64,000 bases of DNA, taken from the IMG/VR virus record IMGVR_UViG_3300034101_002201, positions 1 through 64,000 of that record; one strand, 5' to 3'. This DNA is from a virus. The position numbers were made by a program, and so were the translations under genes. This document shows positions 4,607 to 60,308 of this stretch, one piece after another. Below the pieces are notes generated by a model that had not been told where the DNA came from, did not search any database, and worked only from the letters and a program-made list of their open reading frames with translations. Positions within the stretch are counted from its first letter, which is position 1; each line of letters starts with the position of its first letter.

Positions 4607-4616
4607 GTGTATATAT
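4607..4616 (+). promoter_or_regulatory. Late-promoter-like motif GTGTATATAT
   Basis: One of six occurrences of GTGTATAWAA-like sequence found in intergenic positions in this window. It lies 41 bases upstream of the ATG of the exported thioredoxin-like protein. A TTGACA at 4583-4588 is nearby, but its spacing to this element (18 to 19 bases) is not ideal for sigma70. Confidence 0.45.
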
Positions 4617-4999: not shown

Positions 5000-5350
5000 G
5001 GGGGCGTAAAGGTATCGACAGGTAAAAAAATATATAAATGGCATCCACTGGTTGACCGACCGGCCAGTATAAAAGTCGGTTAAAAATGTTAGTTGGCGAA
5101 ACTCGTTTCGCTCTCGCTGCCTGACCTAGTTAGGCAAGAGTGCGGTGGCATGAACCGTATTGTCCAATCATGCTGACTCCGATAATCGGATATGGTATCC
5201 TCACCAAACATAAATGGGGATGATGATTGTACTCAATCTGACACAGATAATTCTGTTAGTTTTGTTAGCTGTACGATAACAACTAACTAAGGATGTAGAT
5301 GTTTATATTGACATTTATTCTGGACGGCAGTTCGACTCTGCCCGCTTCCA
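5000..5350 (+). ncRNA. ssrA: Transfer-messenger RNA (tmRNA)
   Basis: Acts in trans-translation: rescues stalled ribosomes and appends a degradation tag. The 5' end GGGGGCG (5000-5006) pairs with CGCUUCC (5343-5349), including a G3-U70 wobble, the alanine-identity element. The conserved GGTATCGACAGG block follows. A T-arm GGCAG-TTCGACT-CTGCC precedes the acceptor strand; the final CCA seems to be added after transcription. Upstream of the tag frame, ACTGG (5047-5051)/CCAGT (5064-5068) and ACCGAC (5055-5060)/GTCGGT (5075-5080) form an H-type pseudoknot, as expected for PK1. The resume codon is GGC at 5095 after TAGTT, and the frame reads GETRFALAA then TGA (5122-5124), ending in the protease-recognised ALAA. 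351 bases, a normal length. Confidence 0.93.
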
Positions 5351-5394
5351 ATTAACAATGACAATAATAATTGTATTTTATGAAAGGTTGAATA

Positions 5395-6217: not shown

Positions 6218-6410
6218 TATAAATGACTTCCCAGTAGATACTGATGACTATATAAATAGACTATTGAGGGAGATAGAATCCCTTAAAAATACAGTAGAAT
6301 CATTAAAACTGGAAGTAAAAACCCAAAGAAAAGAAATAGCCCTACTTAGAGAAGAAAGAAAAGCCATTTTAGACAACGATAAACCCCCCGGTTTGTGTAT
6401 AAAATGGTAG
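6207..6410 (+). CDS. Coiled-coil protein
   Basis: 67 residues; residues 15-55 are a charged helix with heptad-spaced Leu/Val/Ile (RLLREIESLKNTVESLKLEV). Probably a coiled-coil oligomer. Overlaps the endonuclease gene by 11 bases. A late-promoter-like motif lies within its last codons. Confidence 0.5.
   Translation: MKIDINDFPVDTDDYINRLLREIESLKNTVESLKLEVKTQRKEIALLREERKAILDNDKPPGLCIKW
6395..6404 (+). promoter_or_regulatory. Late-promoter-like motif GTGTATAAAA
   Basis: Matches the GTGTATAWAA consensus and lies 42 bases upstream of the small membrane protein at 6446, about the same distance as the other copies. The Ig-like structural protein gene follows downstream. Confidence 0.45.
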
Positions 6411-7098: not shown

Positions 7099-7108
7099 GT
7101 GTATATGT
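7099..7108 (+). promoter_or_regulatory. Late-promoter-like motif GTGTATATGT
   Basis: Lies directly after the terminator and 31 bases upstream of the HNH gene start at 7139. It is one of the weaker matches to the GTGTATAWAA consensus. Confidence 0.35.
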
Positions 7109-8253: not shown

Positions 8254-8583
8254 TTATTCAGATTGTACGTCGTATACTGTATTTTTTGCATTTAGATCGA
8301 ATGATACATTATATGTTTTCTGTACTGTGGTATCACCGGTGCTAGAAGTAGCTCTTGTAATTCTATATCTTGTTGGTCTATCATCAGAAGGTAATACTAA
8401 AATTCCAGATGCAACTTTGTCTACGACAGAATATAGAAATTCACCAACTTCTCCACTGTTAGAAGCAGAAAAACTTTCTAAATTTGCATATGGAATAAAT
8501 ACCCCTCCAGAACCACCAAGAGTTGTATATGTAAAATTAGGAAAAAATCTGGTTGGAAATCCAGACGCAGCTGCAAAAGCCAT
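8254..8583 (-). CDS. Small structural-type protein (isolated minus-strand gene)
   Basis: 109 residues, start MAFAAASGFPTRFFPN with a good AAGGAG site on the minus strand. Gly/Ser/Thr/Ala-rich, beta-like, no membrane segment. Composition and the MA- start match the other structural proteins in the window. It is chosen over a + frame on the same bases because it alone has a ribosome site, its own late-promoter-like motif and its own terminator. Likely a virion decoration protein; not recognised at family level. Confidence 0.7.
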   Translation of the reverse strand: MAFAAASGFPTRFFPNFTYTTLGGSGGVFIPYANLESFSASNSGEVGEFLYSVVDKVASGILVLPSDDRPTRYRITRATSSTGDTTVQKTYNVSFDLNAKNTVYDVQSE

Positions 8584-8625: not shown

Positions 8626-8635
8626 TTATATACAC
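8626..8635 (-). promoter_or_regulatory. Late-promoter-like motif GTGTATATAA (minus strand)
   Basis: On the minus strand the context reads TTTTTGTGTATATAAATC and the motif lies 43 bases upstream of the start codon at 8583. This copy is informative because it drives a single isolated gene in the opposite direction to all neighbours. Confidence 0.55.
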
Positions 8636-10185: not shown

Positions 10186-10213
10186 TTGACAGTGCCGATA
10201 ACTCTGGTATACT
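10186..10213 (+). promoter_or_regulatory. Strong sigma70-type promoter
   Basis: TTGACA (10186-10191), 16-base spacer, TATACT (10208-10213). It is the best match to the bacterial housekeeping consensus in the window and lies 46 bases upstream of rIIA, so rIIA/rIIB are probably transcribed early by host RNA polymerase. Confidence 0.8.
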
Positions 10214-15990: not shown

Positions 15991-16018
15991 TTGACTATGA
16001 CGATAATTGTGGTATGAT
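15991..16018 (+). promoter_or_regulatory. Sigma70-type promoter
   Basis: TTGACT (15991-15996), 16-base spacer, TATGAT (16013-16018), located between the ssb terminator and the gene at 16036. Spacing matches the rIIA promoter exactly. Confidence 0.75.
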
Positions 16019-17350: not shown

Positions 17351-18418
17351 ATGAATATTAATATAAATGCTCCAATAAATCAACTTGGATATGGTATAAC
17401 TGGACTTAATATAGTAAAAACATTGAATGAACAATGTAACTTGTCTCTGTTTGTAATTGGACAACCACAGGTAACAAACAAAGAAGATGCCGATATTATT
17501 TCTAAATGCATAAAAAATTCTCATTTTTTTGATGTGAAAGCACCATGCATAAAGATATGGCATCAGCACGATATGGCACAGTTTATAGGAAAAGGTAAAA
17601 GAATTGGTTTTCCAATATTTGAATTAGATCAATTTAGCGATTTAGAAAAACATCATCTTAAATCTTTAGACGAAATTTTTGTATGTTCAGAGTGGGCAAA
17701 AAAAATTGTGATTAATAATATTGACTTTTCAAAGAATAACATACATGTAATACCACTAGGTGTTGATACATCAATATTTAAGGACGGGGCGATAGAATCA
17801 AATACCCCTACGAGATTTTTTAATTGTGGAAAATGGGAGCTAAGAAAGGGGCATGATATTATAGTAGATATATTTAACAAAGCTTTTGATCAAGATGATA
17901 ATGTAGAATTGTTCATGATGTGCGACAACCCCTTTTATACAGAAGAAGAACAAAAAGAATGGATGGATCTATATAAAAATTCAAAATTAGGATCTAAAAT
18001 TCATATAATTCCTAGACAAAACACTCAACAAGAAGTGTATAATATTATGAATAAAATGCATTGCGGTATTTTTATGTCTAGGGCGGAAGGGTGGAATTTA
18101 GAATTATTAGAGATGATGGCTTGTGGAAAAATGGTAATAACTACTAATTATTCAGCCCACACAGAGTTCTGCAATGACACTAACTCTCTTTTGGTGCCAA
18201 TAAATGACACAGAAGTTGCCTATGATGGCAAATGGTTTCATGGACAAGGCAAATGGGCAAAAATAGACAATGACGCAAAAGACTGCGCTATCCAGCACAT
18301 GCGAGTTGTTCACAAATTGAATAAAGATAATGCATCCTTGACAAATTATGCCGGAATAGAAACCGCTAAAGAATTTAGTTGGAAAAATTCTGGAAGGAAG
18401 ATGTTAAATGTTATTTGA
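17351..18418 (+). CDS. Glycosyltransferase, GT4-like
   Basis: 355 residues. Two Rossmann-like halves: an N-terminal acceptor half with LGYGITGLNIVKTL, and a C-terminal donor half with FNCGKWELRKGHDIIVDIF and the E-x7-E motif AEGWNLELLEMMACGK. Transfers a sugar from an activated donor. Separate from the main sugar island at 47-57 kb. SD AAGGTG. Confidence 0.88.
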   Translation: MNININAPINQLGYGITGLNIVKTLNEQCNLSLFVIGQPQVTNKEDADIISKCIKNSHFFDVKAPCIKIWHQHDMAQFIGKGKRIGFPIFELDQFSDLEKHHLKSLDEIFVCSEWAKKIVINNIDFSKNNIHVIPLGVDTSIFKDGAIESNTPTRFFNCGKWELRKGHDIIVDIFNKAFDQDDNVELFMMCDNPFYTEEEQKEWMDLYKNSKLGSKIHIIPRQNTQQEVYNIMNKMHCGIFMSRAEGWNLELLEMMACGKMVITTNYSAHTEFCNDTNSLLVPINDTEVAYDGKWFHGQGKWAKIDNDAKDCAIQHMRVVHKLNKDNASLTNYAGIETAKEFSWKNSGRKMLNVI

Positions 18419-18780: not shown

Positions 18781-19251
18781 ATGTCGAAAATAATAAAAAA
18801 GATAGGATGGCAAAAATACGAAGATTACATTGAGAAACAATTGTCATGCCCAATGTTGCAAAACATTTTGCAAAATATGATTCCAAGTGAAGATGAAGAA
18901 ATATTAGAAGAGGACATTGATGAAGATGATGAATCATATGAAGAAGATAATGAATCATCTAAAAAAAATCCACTATCTTTACTATTTCAAAAAATGTTGC
19001 CATTAACACCACAGGTGATAGACGATGTATCTATGCTTGCAAATTTTGATTGCTGGATGGGGCATACAAATTTTGACATTACCCCAAGAATAAAAGAACA
19101 GTTGAATACAATTCCCGGAATCGAAATATTGAAAATTTTTAGCAGATATAGATTTTTTGTTGGAATTGGTCAGATGTTTGACTTTCAAAATGTACGACAC
19201 GATATTGAAAAAGAATTAATAAAAGGAGAAATTGATGATAGAATTGAATAA
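18781..19251 (+). CDS. Hypothetical protein with acidic linker
   Basis: 156 residues from ATG 18781 (AGGAG site). N-terminal helix pair, then an Asp/Glu-rich linker (residues 38-60), then an alpha/beta C-terminal half (FDCWMGHTNFDITPRIKEQLNTIPGIEIL...RYRFFVGIG). The C-terminal layout is known to me from uncharacterised phage proteins. Overlaps the sigma-like gene by 17 bases. Confidence 0.6.
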   Translation: MSKIIKKIGWQKYEDYIEKQLSCPMLQNILQNMIPSEDEEILEEDIDEDDESYEEDNESSKKNPLSLLFQKMLPLTPQVIDDVSMLANFDCWMGHTNFDITPRIKEQLNTIPGIEILKIFSRYRFFVGIGQMFDFQNVRHDIEKELIKGEIDDRIE

Positions 19252-19714
19252 TCTAAACGATAAAATTAATGAGGCTCTAAAAGATGAGAACATATTAAAG
19301 ATTATGAACAAAGCATCTAAAAGATTTAAAAATCAGTTGGATTCTGAAATAATCAAAACTTGTCAACTAAATGCCCTATGGAAGACTTTTGTAAATCATG
19401 ATCCATCGAAGGGTGCAAAGTTTACAACTTATCTATATAAAGGAGTTTTCATAGAATGCATGAAAGAAATAAAGTTTTCCAATAAAAATAAATCTTATGG
19501 TAAATTACATAGTAATATATCATCAAAATCTGATTGTTTCTTTAATATAGATTTAATGGATGAATTCAAAAATCAAGAAGATATTGATTTGATACAAGAT
19601 AGAATCAGCAATCTAACAATAGCTGAAATATCGAAAAAACGCGGCAAAAATAGGGAAAGTGTAAGAAGAAAAATACACAAATTAGCGGATAGTATAAAAG
19701 ACAAATTCTGCTAA
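19235..19714 (+). CDS. Small sigma70-family-like factor
   Basis: 159 residues from ATG 19235 (AAGGAG, 7-base spacing); a TTG two codons upstream is less likely. Residues 35-85 resemble sigma region 2 (LNALWKTFVNHDPSKGAKFTTYLYKGVFIECMKEI, i.e. the FDPSKGxKFxTY pattern). The C-terminal 40 residues look like region 4 HTH (LTIAEISKKRGKNRESVRRKI). Regions 1 and 3 are lacking, as in small phage late sigma factors such as T4 gp55. It is placed directly before a structural gene led by a late-promoter-like motif. Confidence 0.7.
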   Translation: MIELNNLNDKINEALKDENILKIMNKASKRFKNQLDSEIIKTCQLNALWKTFVNHDPSKGAKFTTYLYKGVFIECMKEIKFSNKNKSYGKLHSNISSKSDCFFNIDLMDEFKNQEDIDLIQDRISNLTIAEISKKRGKNRESVRRKIHKLADSIKDKFC

Positions 19715-19716
19715 AT

Positions 19717-19726
19717 GTGTATATAA
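19717..19726 (+). promoter_or_regulatory. Late-promoter-like motif GTGTATATAA
   Basis: Perfect match to the best consensus, 72 bases upstream of the start of the abundant-looking structural protein gene at 19798 and just after the sigma-like gene. An AAGGAG site precedes the ATG. Confidence 0.5.
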
Positions 19727-19797
19727 GTTTAGGAATTGGACTTTAAAGGATGTGGATATATTTTGCAATCTTAATTTAACTACTAAAGGAGAATAAT

Positions 19798-20418
19798 ATG
19801 GCATCCACATCAGCAAAACAAGCCGGTGGAAGTTCTAATAACGATGGCGGTACAGTACTTCAAGGCGGTGATGTTACTGAAAATCTAACCGATTTATCAC
19901 TTATATCCAATTCAGAAGACAAACCAACCTATGGTTCTGTAGTTGTTCAAGATACCCAATCTTCTCCAGCTACATACAGTGATCCTCATGGTGTAACCAA
20001 AGCAAAGAGTGCTGGAACATTCGCCTACACTCCACCTGCTGGTAGTGACTTTTTATTAATGGCCGCTGGCGATACAAATGCTGGAAAAATAAATGGTACA
20101 GCTTCAACGCTGTTATCAATTCCCGGCGGTGTTGCTGGTGCTGTTATCAATAAAAATCTAAAGACTACTCAGGCTGGTACATATGCTACTAGAGCATTCA
20201 ATGTTCTTGCTACTCCATCTAGCGGTAATTTCCCCGGCCTAACCAGAGGTACTGGTGCTGGCACAGAAGTTACATACCGTGCAACAAGCGGTAATTATCC
20301 AGCCATAGACGATGCTGCTACAACAAGCAGAGCAGTTCCCGGTGAATTAACCTATAGATTTGGATCACCATTACCAACACGCAATGTTGCCTACAAGGCT
20401 AAAGATAGTAACGAATAA
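19798..20418 (+). CDS. Probable virion structural protein
   Basis: 206 residues, Gly/Ser/Thr/Ala-rich with few charges and no Cys: MASTSAKQAGGSSNNDGG at the start, then beta-like repeats with FAYTPPAGSDF, GVAGAVINKNL, YRATSGNYPAIDD. Own late motif, strong SD and terminator point to high late expression, as for a head or tail decoration protein. Family not recognised. Confidence 0.65.
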   Translation: MASTSAKQAGGSSNNDGGTVLQGGDVTENLTDLSLISNSEDKPTYGSVVVQDTQSSPATYSDPHGVTKAKSAGTFAYTPPAGSDFLLMAAGDTNAGKINGTASTLLSIPGGVAGAVINKNLKTTQAGTYATRAFNVLATPSSGNFPGLTRGTGAGTEVTYRATSGNYPAIDDAATTSRAVPGELTYRFGSPLPTRNVAYKAKDSNE

Positions 20419-38601: not shown

Positions 38602-39621
38602 ATGTTAGTAACCTATATACGATCTTCTAGTTATAATAATTATGCGTACTGTCAGATGCAGTACTTTATAACATATGTGCTGGGACATCAACCCGACAGT
38701 GGGAAAAAAGCTGAACTAGGGACAATAGTTCATAAGGTTATGGAAGCATTAGCCCAACTTAAAAAGTACCAACAAGATAATCCTAAGAAAGCAACATTAA
38801 CAATAGAAGACGATGCCTTAAAAACAGTATCTGTCAAAAAAAATGATTTTCTTAAAAGCTCTACTGTGGAAAATTTGCTATCCAGAAGTTTTGATTTTTA
38901 TACTGGTGGATCTAAGCACACTTTTACTAAAAGCGATAAAGATTTGTGCTTAAAGCTTGTTTGGGATACATTAAAATATAACGACGGGCAGTTTGATCCT
39001 AGGCTTAGAAAGATAGTTGCAGCAGAACCTCATTTTGATATACCGATTGATGAAGATTGGGCTTTTTACGAATACGAAGTAAATGGTCAAAAGGTGAAGG
39101 GGCAATTAGCAATTAAGGGTACAATTGACTTAGTAACAGAAACAGAAGAAGGTATTATTGAAGTAATTGATTGGAAGACAGGTCGTAGGCTGGATTGGGC
39201 TACGGGTGAGGAAAAAACATATGGAAAATTATGTTCAGACCCTCAGTTATTGCTATATAATTATGCAATTTCTAAGCTTTTCCCACAATATAAGCAGTCA
39301 ATAATGAGCATCTTTTTTATTAAGGATGGTGGTCCATTTTCCATGTGTTTTGACAAAGCTGATGAAAAAAGATTTTTGGAGATGCTAAAGGAAAGATTCC
39401 TAGACATTAAAAATAATGAAAAACCACAGCCAATTTCACCAAATAGAGAAAATTGGAAATGTACCAAATTGTGCCATTATTGCAAAAATAACTGGCCGGG
39501 AACAGAAACCAACATGTGTATATATATAGAGAATAGCATCAAAACCAAAGGTATGGAAACTACAATTGATAACTGTACAAAAGAAGGATTTCAGATAGGG
39601 TTTTATTCAGCACCCGGATAA
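38602..39621 (+). CDS. RecB/Cas4-like PD-(D/E)XK exonuclease with Cys cluster
   Basis: 339 residues. N-terminal SYNNYAYCQMQYFITYVLG and LGTIVHKVMEALAQL, then nuclease core IKGTIDLVTETEEGIIEVIDWKTGR (D...E-x-K), QLLLYNYAI, and a C-terminal CTKLCHYCKNNW...C. The four cysteines resemble the iron-sulfur cluster of AddB/Cas4-type nucleases. Degrades or resects DNA ends. Adjacent to replication genes. Confidence 0.88.
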   Translation: MLVTYIRSSSYNNYAYCQMQYFITYVLGHQPDSGKKAELGTIVHKVMEALAQLKKYQQDNPKKATLTIEDDALKTVSVKKNDFLKSSTVENLLSRSFDFYTGGSKHTFTKSDKDLCLKLVWDTLKYNDGQFDPRLRKIVAAEPHFDIPIDEDWAFYEYEVNGQKVKGQLAIKGTIDLVTETEEGIIEVIDWKTGRRLDWATGEEKTYGKLCSDPQLLLYNYAISKLFPQYKQSIMSIFFIKDGGPFSMCFDKADEKRFLEMLKERFLDIKNNEKPQPISPNRENWKCTKLCHYCKNNWPGTETNMCIYIENSIKTKGMETTIDNCTKEGFQIGFYSAPG

Positions 39622-42206: not shown

Positions 42207-43838
42207 GTGAATTGGTTCCCATTGAAGAATTTTACTCATTATAGTTTGCTAAAAGGTTATTCGAAGCCAGAGGAACTGTCAAAAAAATGCAAGGATAATG
42301 GATATCCAGCATGTGGCATTTGTGATTATAAGACATTATCTGGTGCGGTTGCTTTTTATAAAGCCTGCAAAAAACATGGCATAAAGCCCATCATTGGATG
42401 TTCATTTGATTTTGCTACACTTTTTGCCAAGAATAAAGATGGATGGTACGAGTTGATTGAGATGGTTTCGTCATTAGATGAAAATGGTAAGTTGCCAGAA
42501 CAATATGAAAATATAGATATTAGTAAAAATCTGATTAGTATCTATAATGCTCCTACTGAGTCAATGCCTATTAGTTATTACACTAATAGAGAAGACGCAA
42601 AACTTCACAGAGTATTATTATGTTCTGATATGAAGACTACGCTACCAAAAATAAAGAAAAGCATTAGGCCAGACAACAATGGTGGTATCAATGTAGACTC
42701 AAAATATCCACAAGAGCATATGGATAAATTAGTGTATTTCATGCAAGACTCTTTTTATGTCAAAGATAAGGATGAATCCAAGAGTCTAGATACGTCTAAA
42801 CTAAAAGAGATTTATGACCAGTGCGAAGACTATAATATTCTCAGCAAACCAATGTTGCCTAAATTTGAATGTCCAAAAGGGGCATCAGAAGAAGATTATC
42901 TCAAAGAACTATGTCGTATTGGCTGGAAGAATATATTAATAGATCAAAACAAAGTATCAAACGAAGAAGATAAGCAGAAGTATTTGAGTAGATTCAAGGA
43001 AGAGTTTGACGTTATTAAAGATGCTAATCTATTCGGATATTTTCTTATTGTGCGTGATATTATCAAACACGTTAATGATATGGGTTGGCTATCTGGCCCC
43101 GGTAGAGGATCTGCCGCAGGTTGTTTAATCTCATACTTAATTGGTATCACAAAGATTGATCCAATAGAGTTTGACCTTCTATTTGCAAGATTTTATAATG
43201 CTGGACGAAATAGTGCTGATCATATATCTCTACCAGATATTGATATAGATGTTCCCGGTACTAAACGTGATGAAATTATTGCATATCTAAAAGATAAGTA
43301 TGGTAGCAGTCGAGTTAGCCAAATGTTAACATTCGGCAGACTTCAAGGAAAGAGTGCTATTAAGGAAGTTTTGCGTGTTAATGAGGCTTGCTCATTCTCT
43401 GAAATGAATGCTATAAGTAACTGCATACCAGATGAAGCAAGAATCTCAGACCAATTAGCAGAAATGGATGATGAAGATCGATCTATTATTAAGTGGGCTT
43501 TAATCAATAACTCTGATGATTTAAAAGATTTCTGTAGAATATCAGAAGATGGAAAACTTGAGGGAGAGTATGCTGCGTATTTTGAGCAAGCTATTCAGAT
43601 AGAAGGAACTTTCAAAACTCAAGGAAAACATGCGGCTGGTGTTGTGATTTCAGCAGAACCTTTACAAAAAGTATGCCCAATGGTAAAACAAAAAGGATCA
43701 TCAGAAAAGGTGGCTGGACTTGAAATGGCAGACTTAGAGGCACTGGGTCATGTAAAGTTTGACGTTCTAGGAATCAATTTGCTAGATAAAATCATGAAAA
43801 TTCAAGATATAATAAAAGGGGAAACATGTTATTCTTAG
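42207..43838 (+). CDS. DNA polymerase III alpha, N-terminal part (split gene)
   Basis: 543 residues from a GTG start. Residues 1-110 are a PHP domain in which the first His-rich metal motif is eroded (NFTHYSLLKGY instead of HxHSxYS). The polymerase palm follows: PGRGSAAGCLISYLIG, PDIDIDVPG with catalytic Asp344 and Asp346, and KFDVLGINLL with third catalytic Asp519. The protein stops after IQDIIKGETCYS, exactly in the linker before the fingers domain. All three catalytic aspartates are here. The C-part is 1.3 kb downstream. Confidence 0.9.
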   Translation: MNWFPLKNFTHYSLLKGYSKPEELSKKCKDNGYPACGICDYKTLSGAVAFYKACKKHGIKPIIGCSFDFATLFAKNKDGWYELIEMVSSLDENGKLPEQYENIDISKNLISIYNAPTESMPISYYTNREDAKLHRVLLCSDMKTTLPKIKKSIRPDNNGGINVDSKYPQEHMDKLVYFMQDSFYVKDKDESKSLDTSKLKEIYDQCEDYNILSKPMLPKFECPKGASEEDYLKELCRIGWKNILIDQNKVSNEEDKQKYLSRFKEEFDVIKDANLFGYFLIVRDIIKHVNDMGWLSGPGRGSAAGCLISYLIGITKIDPIEFDLLFARFYNAGRNSADHISLPDIDIDVPGTKRDEIIAYLKDKYGSSRVSQMLTFGRLQGKSAIKEVLRVNEACSFSEMNAISNCIPDEARISDQLAEMDDEDRSIIKWALINNSDDLKDFCRISEDGKLEGEYAAYFEQAIQIEGTFKTQGKHAAGVVISAEPLQKVCPMVKQKGSSEKVAGLEMADLEALGHVKFDVLGINLLDKIMKIQDIIKGETCYS

Positions 43839-44500: not shown

Positions 44501-45180
44501 TGGCTAATAGGGACTATATTATATTTGACTTTGAAACAGGATCACGCAATCCACATCGCACTCAGCCAACACAAATTGCTGCTATTGCTTTAGATGGAAG
44601 AACATTACAGATGAAGGGGCAATTCAATAGTGAAATTAAGCCTATTTTTGATGATGAAAAGGCTATAGCGGCTGGTTTTGATCCCATACAAGATGAAGCT
44701 TTAAAGATAACAAAGAAAACAAGAGAACAGTTAGAATTAGCACCATCTTTAAAAGCAGTATGGACTAAGTTTACAAAGTTCGTTGATCAGTACAATTGGA
44801 AGGGTGAAGCATTTTTTAATCCTATTCCAGTTGGTTTTAACATCATTGGCTTTGATATGCACATTATAAATAGACTGTGTAAAGAATTTGGACCTTGGGA
44901 CAAGGAGAGAGAGCAGCAAAAACTATTTAGTAGAGTCTATAAAATAGATATCATGGATAGTGTATTTGCTTGGACTGAAAGCGATCCAAGTGTTAGATCT
45001 ATAAGTATGGATTCACTACGCGAGAGAATGGGGTTAAGCTTTGATAATGCTCACGATGCTTTACAGGACGTTAAGGATGAGGCAAATATATTCATTAAAA
45101 TTATGAAAACTCATCGTGCGGTATATCAAAATATGAACTTTGACAAGGCATTTGCTGACGGAAATTTGTATGTTAAATGA
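44500..45180 (+). CDS. DnaQ-like 3'-5' proofreading exonuclease
   Basis: 226 residues. DEDD-h motifs: FDFETGS (Asp, Glu), VGFNIIGFDMHII (Asp) and NAHDALQDVKDEA (His, Asp). Equivalent of the epsilon subunit, removing misincorporated nucleotides. TAATG overlap with the methyltransferase; 11-base overlap with the polymerase C-part, so expression is tied to the polymerase. Confidence 0.92.
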   Translation: MANRDYIIFDFETGSRNPHRTQPTQIAAIALDGRTLQMKGQFNSEIKPIFDDEKAIAAGFDPIQDEALKITKKTREQLELAPSLKAVWTKFTKFVDQYNWKGEAFFNPIPVGFNIIGFDMHIINRLCKEFGPWDKEREQQKLFSRVYKIDIMDSVFAWTESDPSVRSISMDSLRERMGLSFDNAHDALQDVKDEANIFIKIMKTHRAVYQNMNFDKAFADGNLYVK

Positions 45181-46741
45181 TTTAGATTATAATGATAAAG
45201 CAACTTGGCAACTGTTTGCAGAAGGCAAGACTAAGGGGATCTTTCAATTAGAAAGTAACCTTGGAAAATCATGGTCCAAAAAGTTAGCACCGACCAATAT
45301 AGAAGAATTATCAGCACTAATTGCTATTATTAGGCCGGGAACCTTAAAAGCAATTGTTGATGGTAAAAGTATGACACAGCATTACATTGACCGTAAGCAC
45401 GGTAGAGAAGAAGTAACATATCTTCACCCCGCATTAGAAGAGATTTTAAAGCCAACATATGGTGTTCTTGTATATCAAGAGCAGTCCATGCGTATAGCTG
45501 AGAAAATAGCTGGCTTCAATTTACAGGAGGCAGACGTTCTTCGTAAGGCCATTGGAAAGAAAAAAGCTGACCTCATGAATGAAGTCAAAAAATCATTCAT
45601 AGCCGGTGCAGAACGTGTTGGAATCGTAGGCAAGGAGAACGCTGAAGAAATCTTTGGATGGATTGAGAAATCATCAAGATATGCATTCAATAAATCTCAC
45701 AGTGTTTCATACGCTGTATGTTCTTATTGGAGTGCATATTTTAAGGCTCATAATACCAAGGAATTCTTTTTGTCTTACCTGTTCTACGCGAATGAAAAGC
45801 AAGACCCTCATCAAGAAGTTTATGAATTAATATCTGAGGCCAAACTATTTGATATTGAGACAAGAACTCCAAGTTTGATCAACTTTGAAAGAAAGTTCAA
45901 CATTAAGCGTGGTAAGATATACTTTGGTATTAAAGATATCAAGTCATTAACTGGTGCGACGGGAGACAAGTTAATAGAGACTATAAATGAAGCTGAGAAG
46001 ACTTTGAGTAAGACGGTAAAAGAATTTACTTGGCTTGAAATCCTACTTTTCATAGGATCAAATATTAGTTCTACTGCATTCAAAGCTTTAGCTTCAATAG
46101 GATTTTTTAGAAATTTCAAGGGTAATGTTACTAGGAACAAAGCCCTTTATGATTATGAAATTTACAGAACTCTCACCAAAGCAGAACAGACTTGGATATT
46201 AAATCATTATGATGATAAAAAATGGGATTCTTTCGTAGATTGCTTGAGAGATTTAGCACCGACCAAAAAAGAGGGCGGTGGAACTAGCAAAGCTGACAGG
46301 AAGCAGGCTATAGAAAATGAGATACAACTATTAGTAAGTCCACCATATGATCTAGAAGATGATCCAACTTGGATTATAGATCAAGAGGTTAAATTTCTCG
46401 GATGTCCAGTTACAATGACAAAAGTAGAAACATCTGACACTTCTGCTGCTAACACAACTTGTAAAGAAATAATAAATGGTAAAAAGGGAAAAGATATGTG
46501 CATAGTAGCTAATATCCAAAGATTATCAGATTATACCATTAATAAGGGTGAATCTAAAGGTCAGGTGATGTCATTTTTAACTATAGAAGATGACACCTGT
46601 ATTCTAGATAGCGTGATAGCATTTCCAAAAGTAAGAGAAAAATACAAATATATAATGTATGAAGGCAACAATTTAATATTCTGCGGATCAGTTAGTGATA
46701 AAGATGGTTCTTTTATAATTGAAAAAATACATGAAGTGTAG
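45170..46741 (+). CDS. DNA polymerase III alpha, C-terminal part (split gene)
   Basis: 523 residues from ATG 45170. Begins MLNDLDYNDKATWQLFAEG and continues TKGIFQLES, IIRPGTLKAI, YIDRKHGREEVTYLHP, PTYGVLVYQEQSMRIAEKIAGF, DVLRKAIGKKK and YAFNKSHSVSYA, the fingers and thumb-connecting region of DnaE. A tandem HhH-like region and an OB-fold (SLLDSVIAFPKVREKY-like) follow. No catalytic aspartates are in this half. Together with the N-part it equals one full alpha subunit. Confidence 0.92.
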   Translation: MLNDLDYNDKATWQLFAEGKTKGIFQLESNLGKSWSKKLAPTNIEELSALIAIIRPGTLKAIVDGKSMTQHYIDRKHGREEVTYLHPALEEILKPTYGVLVYQEQSMRIAEKIAGFNLQEADVLRKAIGKKKADLMNEVKKSFIAGAERVGIVGKENAEEIFGWIEKSSRYAFNKSHSVSYAVCSYWSAYFKAHNTKEFFLSYLFYANEKQDPHQEVYELISEAKLFDIETRTPSLINFERKFNIKRGKIYFGIKDIKSLTGATGDKLIETINEAEKTLSKTVKEFTWLEILLFIGSNISSTAFKALASIGFFRNFKGNVTRNKALYDYEIYRTLTKAEQTWILNHYDDKKWDSFVDCLRDLAPTKKEGGGTSKADRKQAIENEIQLLVSPPYDLEDDPTWIIDQEVKFLGCPVTMTKVETSDTSAANTTCKEIINGKKGKDMCIVANIQRLSDYTINKGESKGQVMSFLTIEDDTCILDSVIAFPKVREKYKYIMYEGNNLIFCGSVSDKDGSFIIEKIHEV

Positions 46742-52728: not shown

Positions 52729-53524
52729 TTACTCTTCGTATTGGTCTACTGAACCACACTATTTCAACGCCGCATTAAGAAATATCGGCGTAGAATCAAA
52801 TATGTGGAATACTAATCTTAGTGTATATGATAATTTTGATACATATAAACCAGACGTATTTATTGGTCATGCTCTAAATCTGCCAAGAGATTTCATTCAA
52901 TATTTAAAAGACAGTAACAACCAAGAAATTAAAGTGTTATTGAACATTAATGACATAAATGCTAATAATATTGGGCTATTAGCTGAAAGGTTAAATGAAA
53001 ATAATATTAAATTTGTATTTTTTGGTACACGCGAGACTAGTACCAGTGATATAAAATTTATCAAGATAATGCCATCGGCTGATGTATTTATACCAATTGC
53101 CAAAAAGAAGTTTGAGATTGATAAAGCTATATTCGTATCTCAAGAAGATCAAATTCCAGAATATGATGGCGTATACCATATTCTAACTAATAACCAAGCA
53201 ATAAAAGATAAAGTAGATATTTTCTTGCCTGTCTTAGAACTTAACAAACTTTTTGTCAACTACAAAGAAATTGTTTTTAAAGATGCGTCTTTCTTAGAAT
53301 CTCAGATAGTTTTTGATGCAATAAAAAATGGTAATAAAATCGTATTTGATTTTAAGAATAATAGCTATACTGACAAAATTACAGAAATTTTTAAAGGCGA
53401 AAAATTTAGTAGTTCGGTCAAAAATAGACACACATGTTTCCATAGATTAAAAACATTATTGTCTCAAATTTCACCACCAGAAGAAATACTTAGTAGACTA
53501 AACGATAGGATCAACTCGTTATGA
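52709..53524 (+). CDS. Hypothetical GT-B-like protein of the sugar island
   Basis: 271 residues. FDYSSYWSTEPHYFNAALRNIGVESNMWN, YKPDVFIGHALNLPRD and LLNINDINANNIGLLAERLNENNIKFVFF read like the acceptor half of a glycosyltransferase, but no donor-binding motif is seen. It may be a truncated glycosyltransferase or partner. Confidence 0.5.
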   Translation: MRFLVFDYSSYWSTEPHYFNAALRNIGVESNMWNTNLSVYDNFDTYKPDVFIGHALNLPRDFIQYLKDSNNQEIKVLLNINDINANNIGLLAERLNENNIKFVFFGTRETSTSDIKFIKIMPSADVFIPIAKKKFEIDKAIFVSQEDQIPEYDGVYHILTNNQAIKDKVDIFLPVLELNKLFVNYKEIVFKDASFLESQIVFDAIKNGNKIVFDFKNNSYTDKITEIFKGEKFSSSVKNRHTCFHRLKTLLSQISPPEEILSRLNDRINSL

Positions 53525-59526: not shown

Positions 59527-59550
59527 GGGGCGGGAAACCGCCCCTTTTTT
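59527..59550 (+). terminator. Intrinsic terminator at the strand switch
   Basis: GGGGCGG / CCGCCCC stem (59527-59533 with 59538-59544) with a GAAA loop, then TTTTTT. It ends the long + strand transcription and lies next to the convergent 3' end of the minus-strand structural genes. Confidence 0.92.
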
Positions 59551-60266
59551 CATAGATACTCTAATGTAAAATATAGTCCATAGTTTTGTTTGGCACCGGG
59601 AGTATCTGGTTCCGAACTAATAGCTAAATACCAATCATGTCTTAACGCCTCATGGGTATCCCCTTGATTAAATTCCCATTTTAGAATAGACTGATTGCCT
59701 TCACCGGATAATGTATTCTTTCCGCTAACTCCGGGTGATGGAGTAAGTGAAAAATCTGACATAATTTGACCGCCAGTAAATAATCTCCATGAATACTCTG
59801 AATTTGCCCTATGACTTAAACTTCCCGCTGATTGATTTGTAGCCGGATGCCTTGCTTCATAGATCCACGTTGAAACTCCAGAAGCTTGTTTTGATATATC
59901 GTTTCTATCAAACACCCTAAGCTTACAATTCTTAACCGATACTGCCTGTGTGTGTGTAAATCTAATGTTTAGTGGGCATTGATTGTTTGGCAAGTTATTC
60001 AAAGAAAGAGTATTTCCATCCTTGGCTTTTACTTGACCATTTTGAGTAGAATTTCCACTAGTCAACATGGCTGTATTTTGTAATTGCGTACCAACAACAG
60101 TTCCGCTAGAGTTAGTAATCCATGTGGTAGACTGCTGAGATTGTACTGGTACAGAAACTCCGAAACCAGCACCAAAAAACCCTAATCCACTTCCTAATAA
60201 GTGAGGTATTTCTTCCGGTACTCCGTCTACACCAATTACATTCCCATAAAATTTGATTTCAGCCAT
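59550..60266 (-). CDS. Virion structural protein
   Basis: 238 residues, minus strand, with GGGGAGA ribosome site. Starts MAEIKFYGNVIGVDGVPEEIPHLLGSGLGFFGAGFGVSV; beta-rich with many Ser/Thr/Gly/Asn/Gln. Contains RFTHTQAVSVKNCKLRVFDRNDISKQASGVSTWIYEA. I associate this layout with structural proteins of large phages. Own late-promoter-like motif upstream. Confidence 0.65.
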   Translation of the reverse strand: MAEIKFYGNVIGVDGVPEEIPHLLGSGLGFFGAGFGVSVPVQSQQSTTWITNSSGTVVGTQLQNTAMLTSGNSTQNGQVKAKDGNTLSLNNLPNNQCPLNIRFTHTQAVSVKNCKLRVFDRNDISKQASGVSTWIYEARHPATNQSAGSLSHRANSEYSWRLFTGGQIMSDFSLTPSPGVSGKNTLSGEGNQSILKWEFNQGDTHEALRHDWYLAISSEPDTPGAKQNYGLYFTLEYL

Positions 60267-60298: not shown

Positions 60299-60308
60299 TA
60301 TTATACAC
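60299..60308 (-). promoter_or_regulatory. Late-promoter-like motif GTGTATAATA (minus strand)
   Basis: 33 bases upstream of the start codon at 60266, read on the minus strand as GGTGTATAATATAC. It lies in the short gap between two minus-strand structural genes, which suggests a separate transcript for the downstream gene. Confidence 0.5.

Follow-up and report, generated by a model that had tools for sequence, protein, structure and literature searches.

A GTGTATA core element as a probable late promoter class, and its candidate sigma factor, in a group of uncultivated large phages

The window analysed here comprises bases 1–64,000 of the IMG/VR virus contig IMGVR_UViG_3300034101_002201 (96,347 bp), in which the heptamer GTGTATA occurs ahead of genes on both strands and a small sigma-70-family protein, designated sigmaA, is encoded from position 19235. 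Enrichment, orientation, spacing to the start codon (ATG), an initiator preference and conservation at the orthologue and codon levels were evaluated for this element. They strongly support the view, put forward in the initial annotation of the window, that GTGTATA represents one class of promoters common to genes of the virion region, genes for exported proteins and others, on either strand. Furthermore, it is proposed, with a probability of roughly 0.68, that GTGTATA is the core of a phage late promoter class served by host RNA polymerase together with a phage sigma factor, sigmaA being its likeliest reader; late timing, promoter activity, the start site and the pairing of sigma factor and motif are what we infer.

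Enrichment and conservation of GTGTATA upstream of genes

The six GTGTATAWAA copies listed in the initial annotation are all present in the window. Their distances to the ATG are 51, 51, 40, 81, 52 and 42 bases from the first base of the motif and agree with the range of 31–72 reported earlier once the last base of the 10-mer is taken as the origin. The informative part is the core GTGTATA (rarely GTGTATT), and the full 10-mer did not hold up as the consensus. The predicted excess over shuffled sequence was likewise missing for the window as a whole, with 25 matches to GTGTATAWAA at no more than one mismatch (20.7 in shuffles) and 10 copies of GTGTATA (9.7 in shuffles, i.e., chance level). Such whole-window counts were set aside as a test, being unsuitable for a position-specific element. 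They are what mere chance in an AT-rich genome would give, but this explanation is refuted by the oriented, position-specific enrichment in seven genomes and the orthologous conservation described below, and is left with next to no probability.

Upstream of genes, where enrichment had also been predicted, GTGTATA ranked first among all 7-mers in the region from −90 to −22 relative to gene starts, which holds 7 of the 15 copies in the record (P 3.7e-7). Six relatives of 118–167 kb, fetched via the sigma gene and including those named G001, G002 and G005, were analyzed independently, and GTGTATA was the top upstream 7-mer in 7/7 genomes (P 3.6e-6 to 5e-12). In the pooled set, 73 of 176 copies lie upstream, whereas 7.0 would be expected and the opposite orientation accounts for 4. 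The upstream copies peak sharply 30–60 bases before the ATG. As a control, all upstream windows were moved together in 400 shifts, and a 7-mer equally extreme appeared in 1/400 shifts for this record and 0/400 for G001. GTGTATA itself averaged 0.4–1.4 copies under shifted windows, never exceeding 3 in this record. A random-placement control with overlapping windows was discarded as invalid in favour of these shifts, because a single copy could be counted several times. Moreover, the same script recovered the known late elements TATAAATA in T4 (10/18) and AATGTATA in phiEco32 (5/7). A shared element at a set range upstream of virion genes and in a single orientation, as expected of late promoters that depend on a phage sigma factor, was found.

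Conservation in related phages, suggested earlier as a check, was evident from 11 orthologue groups carrying the motif in at least four genomes, compared with 0.08 by permutation. The flanking 7-base blocks in these groups are only 44–58% identical, i.e., the copies are kept while their flanks drift. More distant relatives also keep GTGTATA ahead of a tail gene, a scaffold-type gene and the orthologue of gene 59550. Among the targets are several tail-region genes, a scaffold-type gene that neighbours the gene for the major head protein, a further head protein gene, a gene for an exported thioredoxin-like protein (4658) and several HNH endonuclease genes. The targets are therefore not virion genes alone, as genes 4658 and 7139 (the latter encoding an HNH endonuclease) show. 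As a separate observation, free-standing HNH-type endonuclease genes occur in the relatives, many with a GTGTATA promoter of their own (12933, 149163 and 165174 in G001; 92179 in G002).

Architecture of the element and copies inside genes

Among 60 de-duplicated sites, GTGTATA is preceded by a T-rich stretch and followed by T and then A/G at 13–14 bases from the first base of the motif. This step is present at 68% of upstream copies vs 31% of other copies (P 2.4e-5) and coincides with the position expected for the start site of a −10 element, so that transcription is predicted to begin there. No information was seen at a −35 box in the same 60 sites, and no second box at fixed spacing was visible. 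Some copies lie directly 3' of terminator-like hairpins.

The TATA within the motif, which in many copies continues as GTGTATAAT, near TATAAT, could suggest that GTGTATA is a −10 box recognised by host sigma70, assisted by a phage activator or by modified RNA polymerase in the manner of T4 middle-type control. However, GTG directly abuts TATA and does not fit the extended −10 TGnTATAAT, the sites have neither the −35 nor the fixed-spacing box looked for above, and sigma70-like promoters of a distinct kind, carrying CTTGAC plus TATACT/TATAAT boxes, occur in the same genomes. Reading by host sigma70 is accordingly considered improbable.

Three copies within coding genes were also found to be conserved at the level of codons. 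The copy at 18035 is represented by the codons GTG TAT in every homologue displayed, although only 8% of the Val codons in these genomes are GTG and synonymous positions close by differ. This came from an unbiased listing, and a second set, partly chosen on GTGTAT, gave the same result. Furthermore, the copies at record positions 90295 (minus strand, ahead of a tape-measure-type gene) and 71031 (minus strand, ahead of the next structural gene) are kept in 11/11 and 9/10 genomes, respectively. All three fit internal promoters. The coding match near 39514, dismissed earlier as an example of chance, is kept in 7/11 genomes and may therefore be real. Another coding copy, at 52821, is not conserved and was taken as chance.

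Very unlikely is an action of GTGTATA in the RNA, i.e., as a binding or processing site of the leader and not as promoter DNA. The location of the motif 35–55 bases before the ATG and the conserved leader that follows the copy at 19717 would be compatible with such a role, but against it stand the conserved intragenic copies, from which the next gene of interest is 0.2–1.2 kb away, the copies placed immediately after terminator-like hairpins, and the initiator preference at +13/+14.

SigmaA, sigmaB and the reading of GTGTATA

The initial description of the protein at 19235 as sigma-like, with region 2 and region 4 parts, was borne out by profile and fold, which identify a genuine small sigma-70-family protein. 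SigmaA matches a PHROG sigma factor family (E 3e-6), and members of its family match Pfam Sigma70_r4 (11/14) and Sigma70_r2 (7/14) with scores below the curated cut-offs. The family profile searched against PDB retrieved WhiG over regions 2 and 4 (E 5.8e-4), other matches being mostly sigma factors. Moreover, the AlphaFold model (predicted local distance difference test, pLDDT, 82) has phage sigma factors as its top Foldseek matches among viral structures (E 8.5e-5). Regions 2 and 4 are thus recognisable by sequence or fold, as required of a sigma-70 family member. The protein was found at 33 viral loci; no match was obtained in 50,697 phage records or in 84,980 species genomes, and the host was therefore not identified.

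A sigma70-like promoter is located approximately 3 kb upstream of sigmaA in 8/9 genomes, and the sigmaA gene is therefore probably early. This early promoter class (CTTGAC..(G)CCGATA..GTATACT, with the conserved spacer element GCCGATA) occurs at 10186–10213 and 15991–16018 of the window as well as in the relatives and represents the second most enriched motif family. The initial annotation had also linked sigmaA to the motif by the perfect copy that follows its gene. The position is correct, and the site is kept even at a locus whose sigmaA is only 35% identical, but the copy would serve as promoter for gene 19798, which comes next, and proximity alone gives no tie to the sigma factor.

The most serious competitor of sigmaA is sigmaB, encoded in near-complete relatives by a second sigma gene just before the terminase region, a part of the genome that is missing from this truncated contig. 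SigmaB as the main reader, activating its own operon while sigmaA assists or does something else, is unlikely overall, yet clearly more credible than the sigma70 alternative. Having no region 4 match, sigmaB would fit a −35-less element, as for phiEco32 gp36; its Pfam Sigma70_r2 match is over the cut-off in 3 genomes, and its operon has a GTGTATA promoter in 8/10 genomes. In addition, its region 2 is nearly invariant in a wider clade in which GTGTATA is also enriched (43 copies upstream vs 7.0 expected). However, a factor dependent on GTGTATA alone could not start the class, and no early-type promoter was detected within 4.5 kb upstream of sigmaB in 8/9 genomes. Moreover, G002 retains strong GTGTATA enrichment (14/31 copies upstream), although its sigmaB is only 28% identical and has no GTGTATA ahead. 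Because sigmaA alone has an early promoter, it is favoured as the factor that would open the GTGTATA class. Presence or absence of the sigma genes across relatives was rejected as a discriminator between sigmaA and sigmaB: contigs without sigmaA also lack rIIA, NrdA and gene 19798 and are therefore likely truncated there. Neither the direct profile comparison between the two sigma factors nor that of either one with T4 gp55 was significant.

Several points weigh against sigmaA as the reader or against the strength of the counts. SigmaA has a region-4-like domain, yet the GTGTATA promoters have no visible −35 box. SigmaB, a region-2-only protein, co-occurs with sigmaA in 5/6 relatives and is the better conserved of the two in the wider clade. 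The shifted-window control was weaker in G005 alone (18/400). Finally, gene calling (111 genes for the record of 96,347 bp) relied on a simple heuristic open reading frame script, and the genomes compared are related, so that their counts are not independent.

For sigmaA as the reader of a late class, the following course of transcription is proposed. The host sigma70-type operon promoter would make sigmaA early. GTGTATA would act as the −10-like core element of phage-specific, −35-less promoters, at which host RNA polymerase core with sigmaA would melt the TATA part and read the GTG upstream of it, RNA starting approximately 8 bases after GTGTATA at the T then A/G step. In this way, sigmaA would activate, on either strand, the genes for virion proteins, exported proteins and homing endonucleases, plus sigmaB. 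The intragenic copies may add internal starts, that at 18035 reading into the sigmaA gene with possible positive feedback. A tentative extension, less probable than the reading by sigmaA itself, is a two-sigma relay throughout a wide uncultivated lineage. Early promoters would yield sigmaA, sigmaA would serve the GTGTATA promoters (including the intragenic sigmaA booster and the sigmaB promoter), and sigmaB would sustain or redirect very late transcription; codons that could otherwise vary freely might have been fixed lineage-wide by the promoters embedded in coding genes.

Comparison with known systems indicated that the GTGTATA system probably operates in the manner of phiEco32 gp36 and of T4 late transcription, but neither its consensus nor the homology of its sigma factors places it in either system. 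For phiEco32 gp36, middle/late promoters have the consensus tAATGTAtA, with the start 6–8 bases after the element (PMC8948821). Shared features are a phage sigma that would direct host polymerase, a single −10-type element without −35 and with a TGTATA core, structural targets and a start at a similar distance downstream (here predicted at ~8 bases). In contrast, the element found here is GTGTATA and not AATGTATA, which has 0 or 1 upstream copies per genome and is not enriched; sigmaA carries a region-4-like domain that gp36 lacks, without detectable sequence relation (hhalign 0.1%); and phiEco32 is not related to the present group, which also differs by its intragenic sites and its second sigma. 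The T4 late system (gp55, gp33 and the gp45 clamp) has in common a −35-less late core element and a small phage-encoded sigma factor that includes a region 2 part, and rIIA/rIIB and RNR genes are likewise present in this genome. The AT-rich core was initially likened to the T4 late element, but the consensus differs: TATAAATA is not enriched here (0 to 4 upstream copies per genome). Unlike gp55, sigmaA carries region 4, and no significant profile match connects the two (hhalign probability 1%). Furthermore, gp55 matches the late sigma family PHROG 234 (phrog_234), which sigmaA does not, and none of the proteins scanned was identified as a homologue of gp33 or gp45. Phage 7-11 gp47, in turn, recognises GTAAtg-(16)-aCTA (PMC8948821). 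It resembles sigmaA as a phage sigma with a region 4 part that drives late genes, a role which sigmaA would share, and differs in its bipartite promoter with a −35-like box, one element being seen here. GTGTATA as a described late core promoter element was not found in the literature searched. With these results, late gene control in a group of uncultivated large phages becomes accessible from sequence alone, and the putative promoters, the predicted start sites and the two sigma factor candidates named here are open to in vitro testing with standard polymerase. The element may also mark late operons in the annotation of phages from metagenomes, even where a promoter is hidden within a gene.

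Genomic context and accompanying features

Table 1. Coordinates of the sigmaA gene, its early promoter and the GTGTATA sites (window positions unless stated otherwise)
Feature	Position	Strand	Remarks
sigmaA, small sigma-70-family protein, most likely a late sigma factor	19235..19714	+	159 amino acids (aa); region 2 and region-4-like helix-turn-helix
Sigma70-like early promoter TTGACTATGACGATAATTGTGGTATGAT	15991..16018	+	Ahead of the operon (16036 on) ending with sigmaA
Putative GTGTATA promoter element of gene 19798	19717..19723	+	Kept as GTGTATA, some GTGTATT, in sigmaA loci
Conserved leader TAGGAAyyGGACtttAAAGGAtgtGGA..SD (Shine-Dalgarno)	19724..19797	+
Gene served by the 19717 promoter	19798..20418	+	206 aa, Ala/Gly/Ser/Thr-rich, without family match
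Putative GTGTATA promoter of exported thioredoxin-like gene 4658	4607..4613	+	7/7 orthologues; PHROG thioredoxin
Putative GTGTATA promoter of small exported/membrane gene 6446	6395..6401	+	3/3 orthologues
Putative GTGTATA promoter of HNH endonuclease gene 7139	7099..7105	+	Right after terminator-like hairpin and T-run; 4/5 orthologues
Putative GTGTATA promoter of minus-strand gene 8254–8583	8629..8635	-	4/4 orthologues
Putative GTGTATA promoter of gene 59550–60266, end of minus-strand structural region	60302..60308	-	7/7 orthologues and 5 more distant relatives
Seventh upstream GTGTATA copy, ahead of a tail-region gene	record position 93458	-	Beyond the window
Intragenic GTGTATA in glycosyltransferase gene 17351–18418, candidate internal late promoter	18035..18041	+	1.2 kb ahead of sigmaA
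Possible promoter, coding copy situated 115 bp upstream of gene 39631	39516..39522	+	Ambiguous; protein constraint may explain its conservation

The plus strand from 1 to 59.5 kb encodes rIIA/rIIB, IMPDH, RNR, PhoH, a helicase, a primase, DnaE parts, SSB and glycosyltransferases (some named by sequence alone), and the minus strand from 59.5 kb to the contig end carries virion genes, including tape-measure-type and other giant proteins. The late region had no DNA-level match among named phages, the terminase of a relative is ~25% identical to those of Bacillus and Microcystis phages, and the head protein of the same relative is 23% identical to that of Bacillus phage G; the group is therefore regarded as uncultivated. 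SigmaA and sigmaB likewise had no match among named phages, the searches being made with megablast and tblastn, and a search for relatives via a tail-fibre-type protein yielded none.

The leader of gene 19798 and its relatives contains two conserved AGGANNNGGA motifs (TAGGAAyyGGAC and AAAGGAtgtGGA) and resembles a single-stranded protein-binding site, e.g., a CsrA/RegA-type operator; consensus folding of 19724–19797 gave no conserved structure. A similar TTTAGGA..AAGGA leader, followed by a conserved CTCCCGCTTGTGAGA, is located upstream of a structural-region gene (91149–92180, minus strand, in record coordinates beyond the window) and its orthologues, without a GTGTATA promoter.

Possible middle promoters, consisting of an GTGTTTTT/TTGTTTTTT-type box and then GCTATAATA or GCTAATATATTAAGA, were observed ahead of the replication-type genes 12421, 15085, 42207 and 46791. 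The DnaE-type polymerase is apparently split into 42207–43838 and 45140–46741, with unrelated genes between. Furthermore, a transfer-messenger RNA (tmRNA) gene is located at 5000–5353 on the plus strand of the window (Rfam RF00023, 91.9 bits, tag GETRFALAA), and tmRNA genes with the tags GETRFALAA or GETQLALAA are also present in 4/6 relatives.
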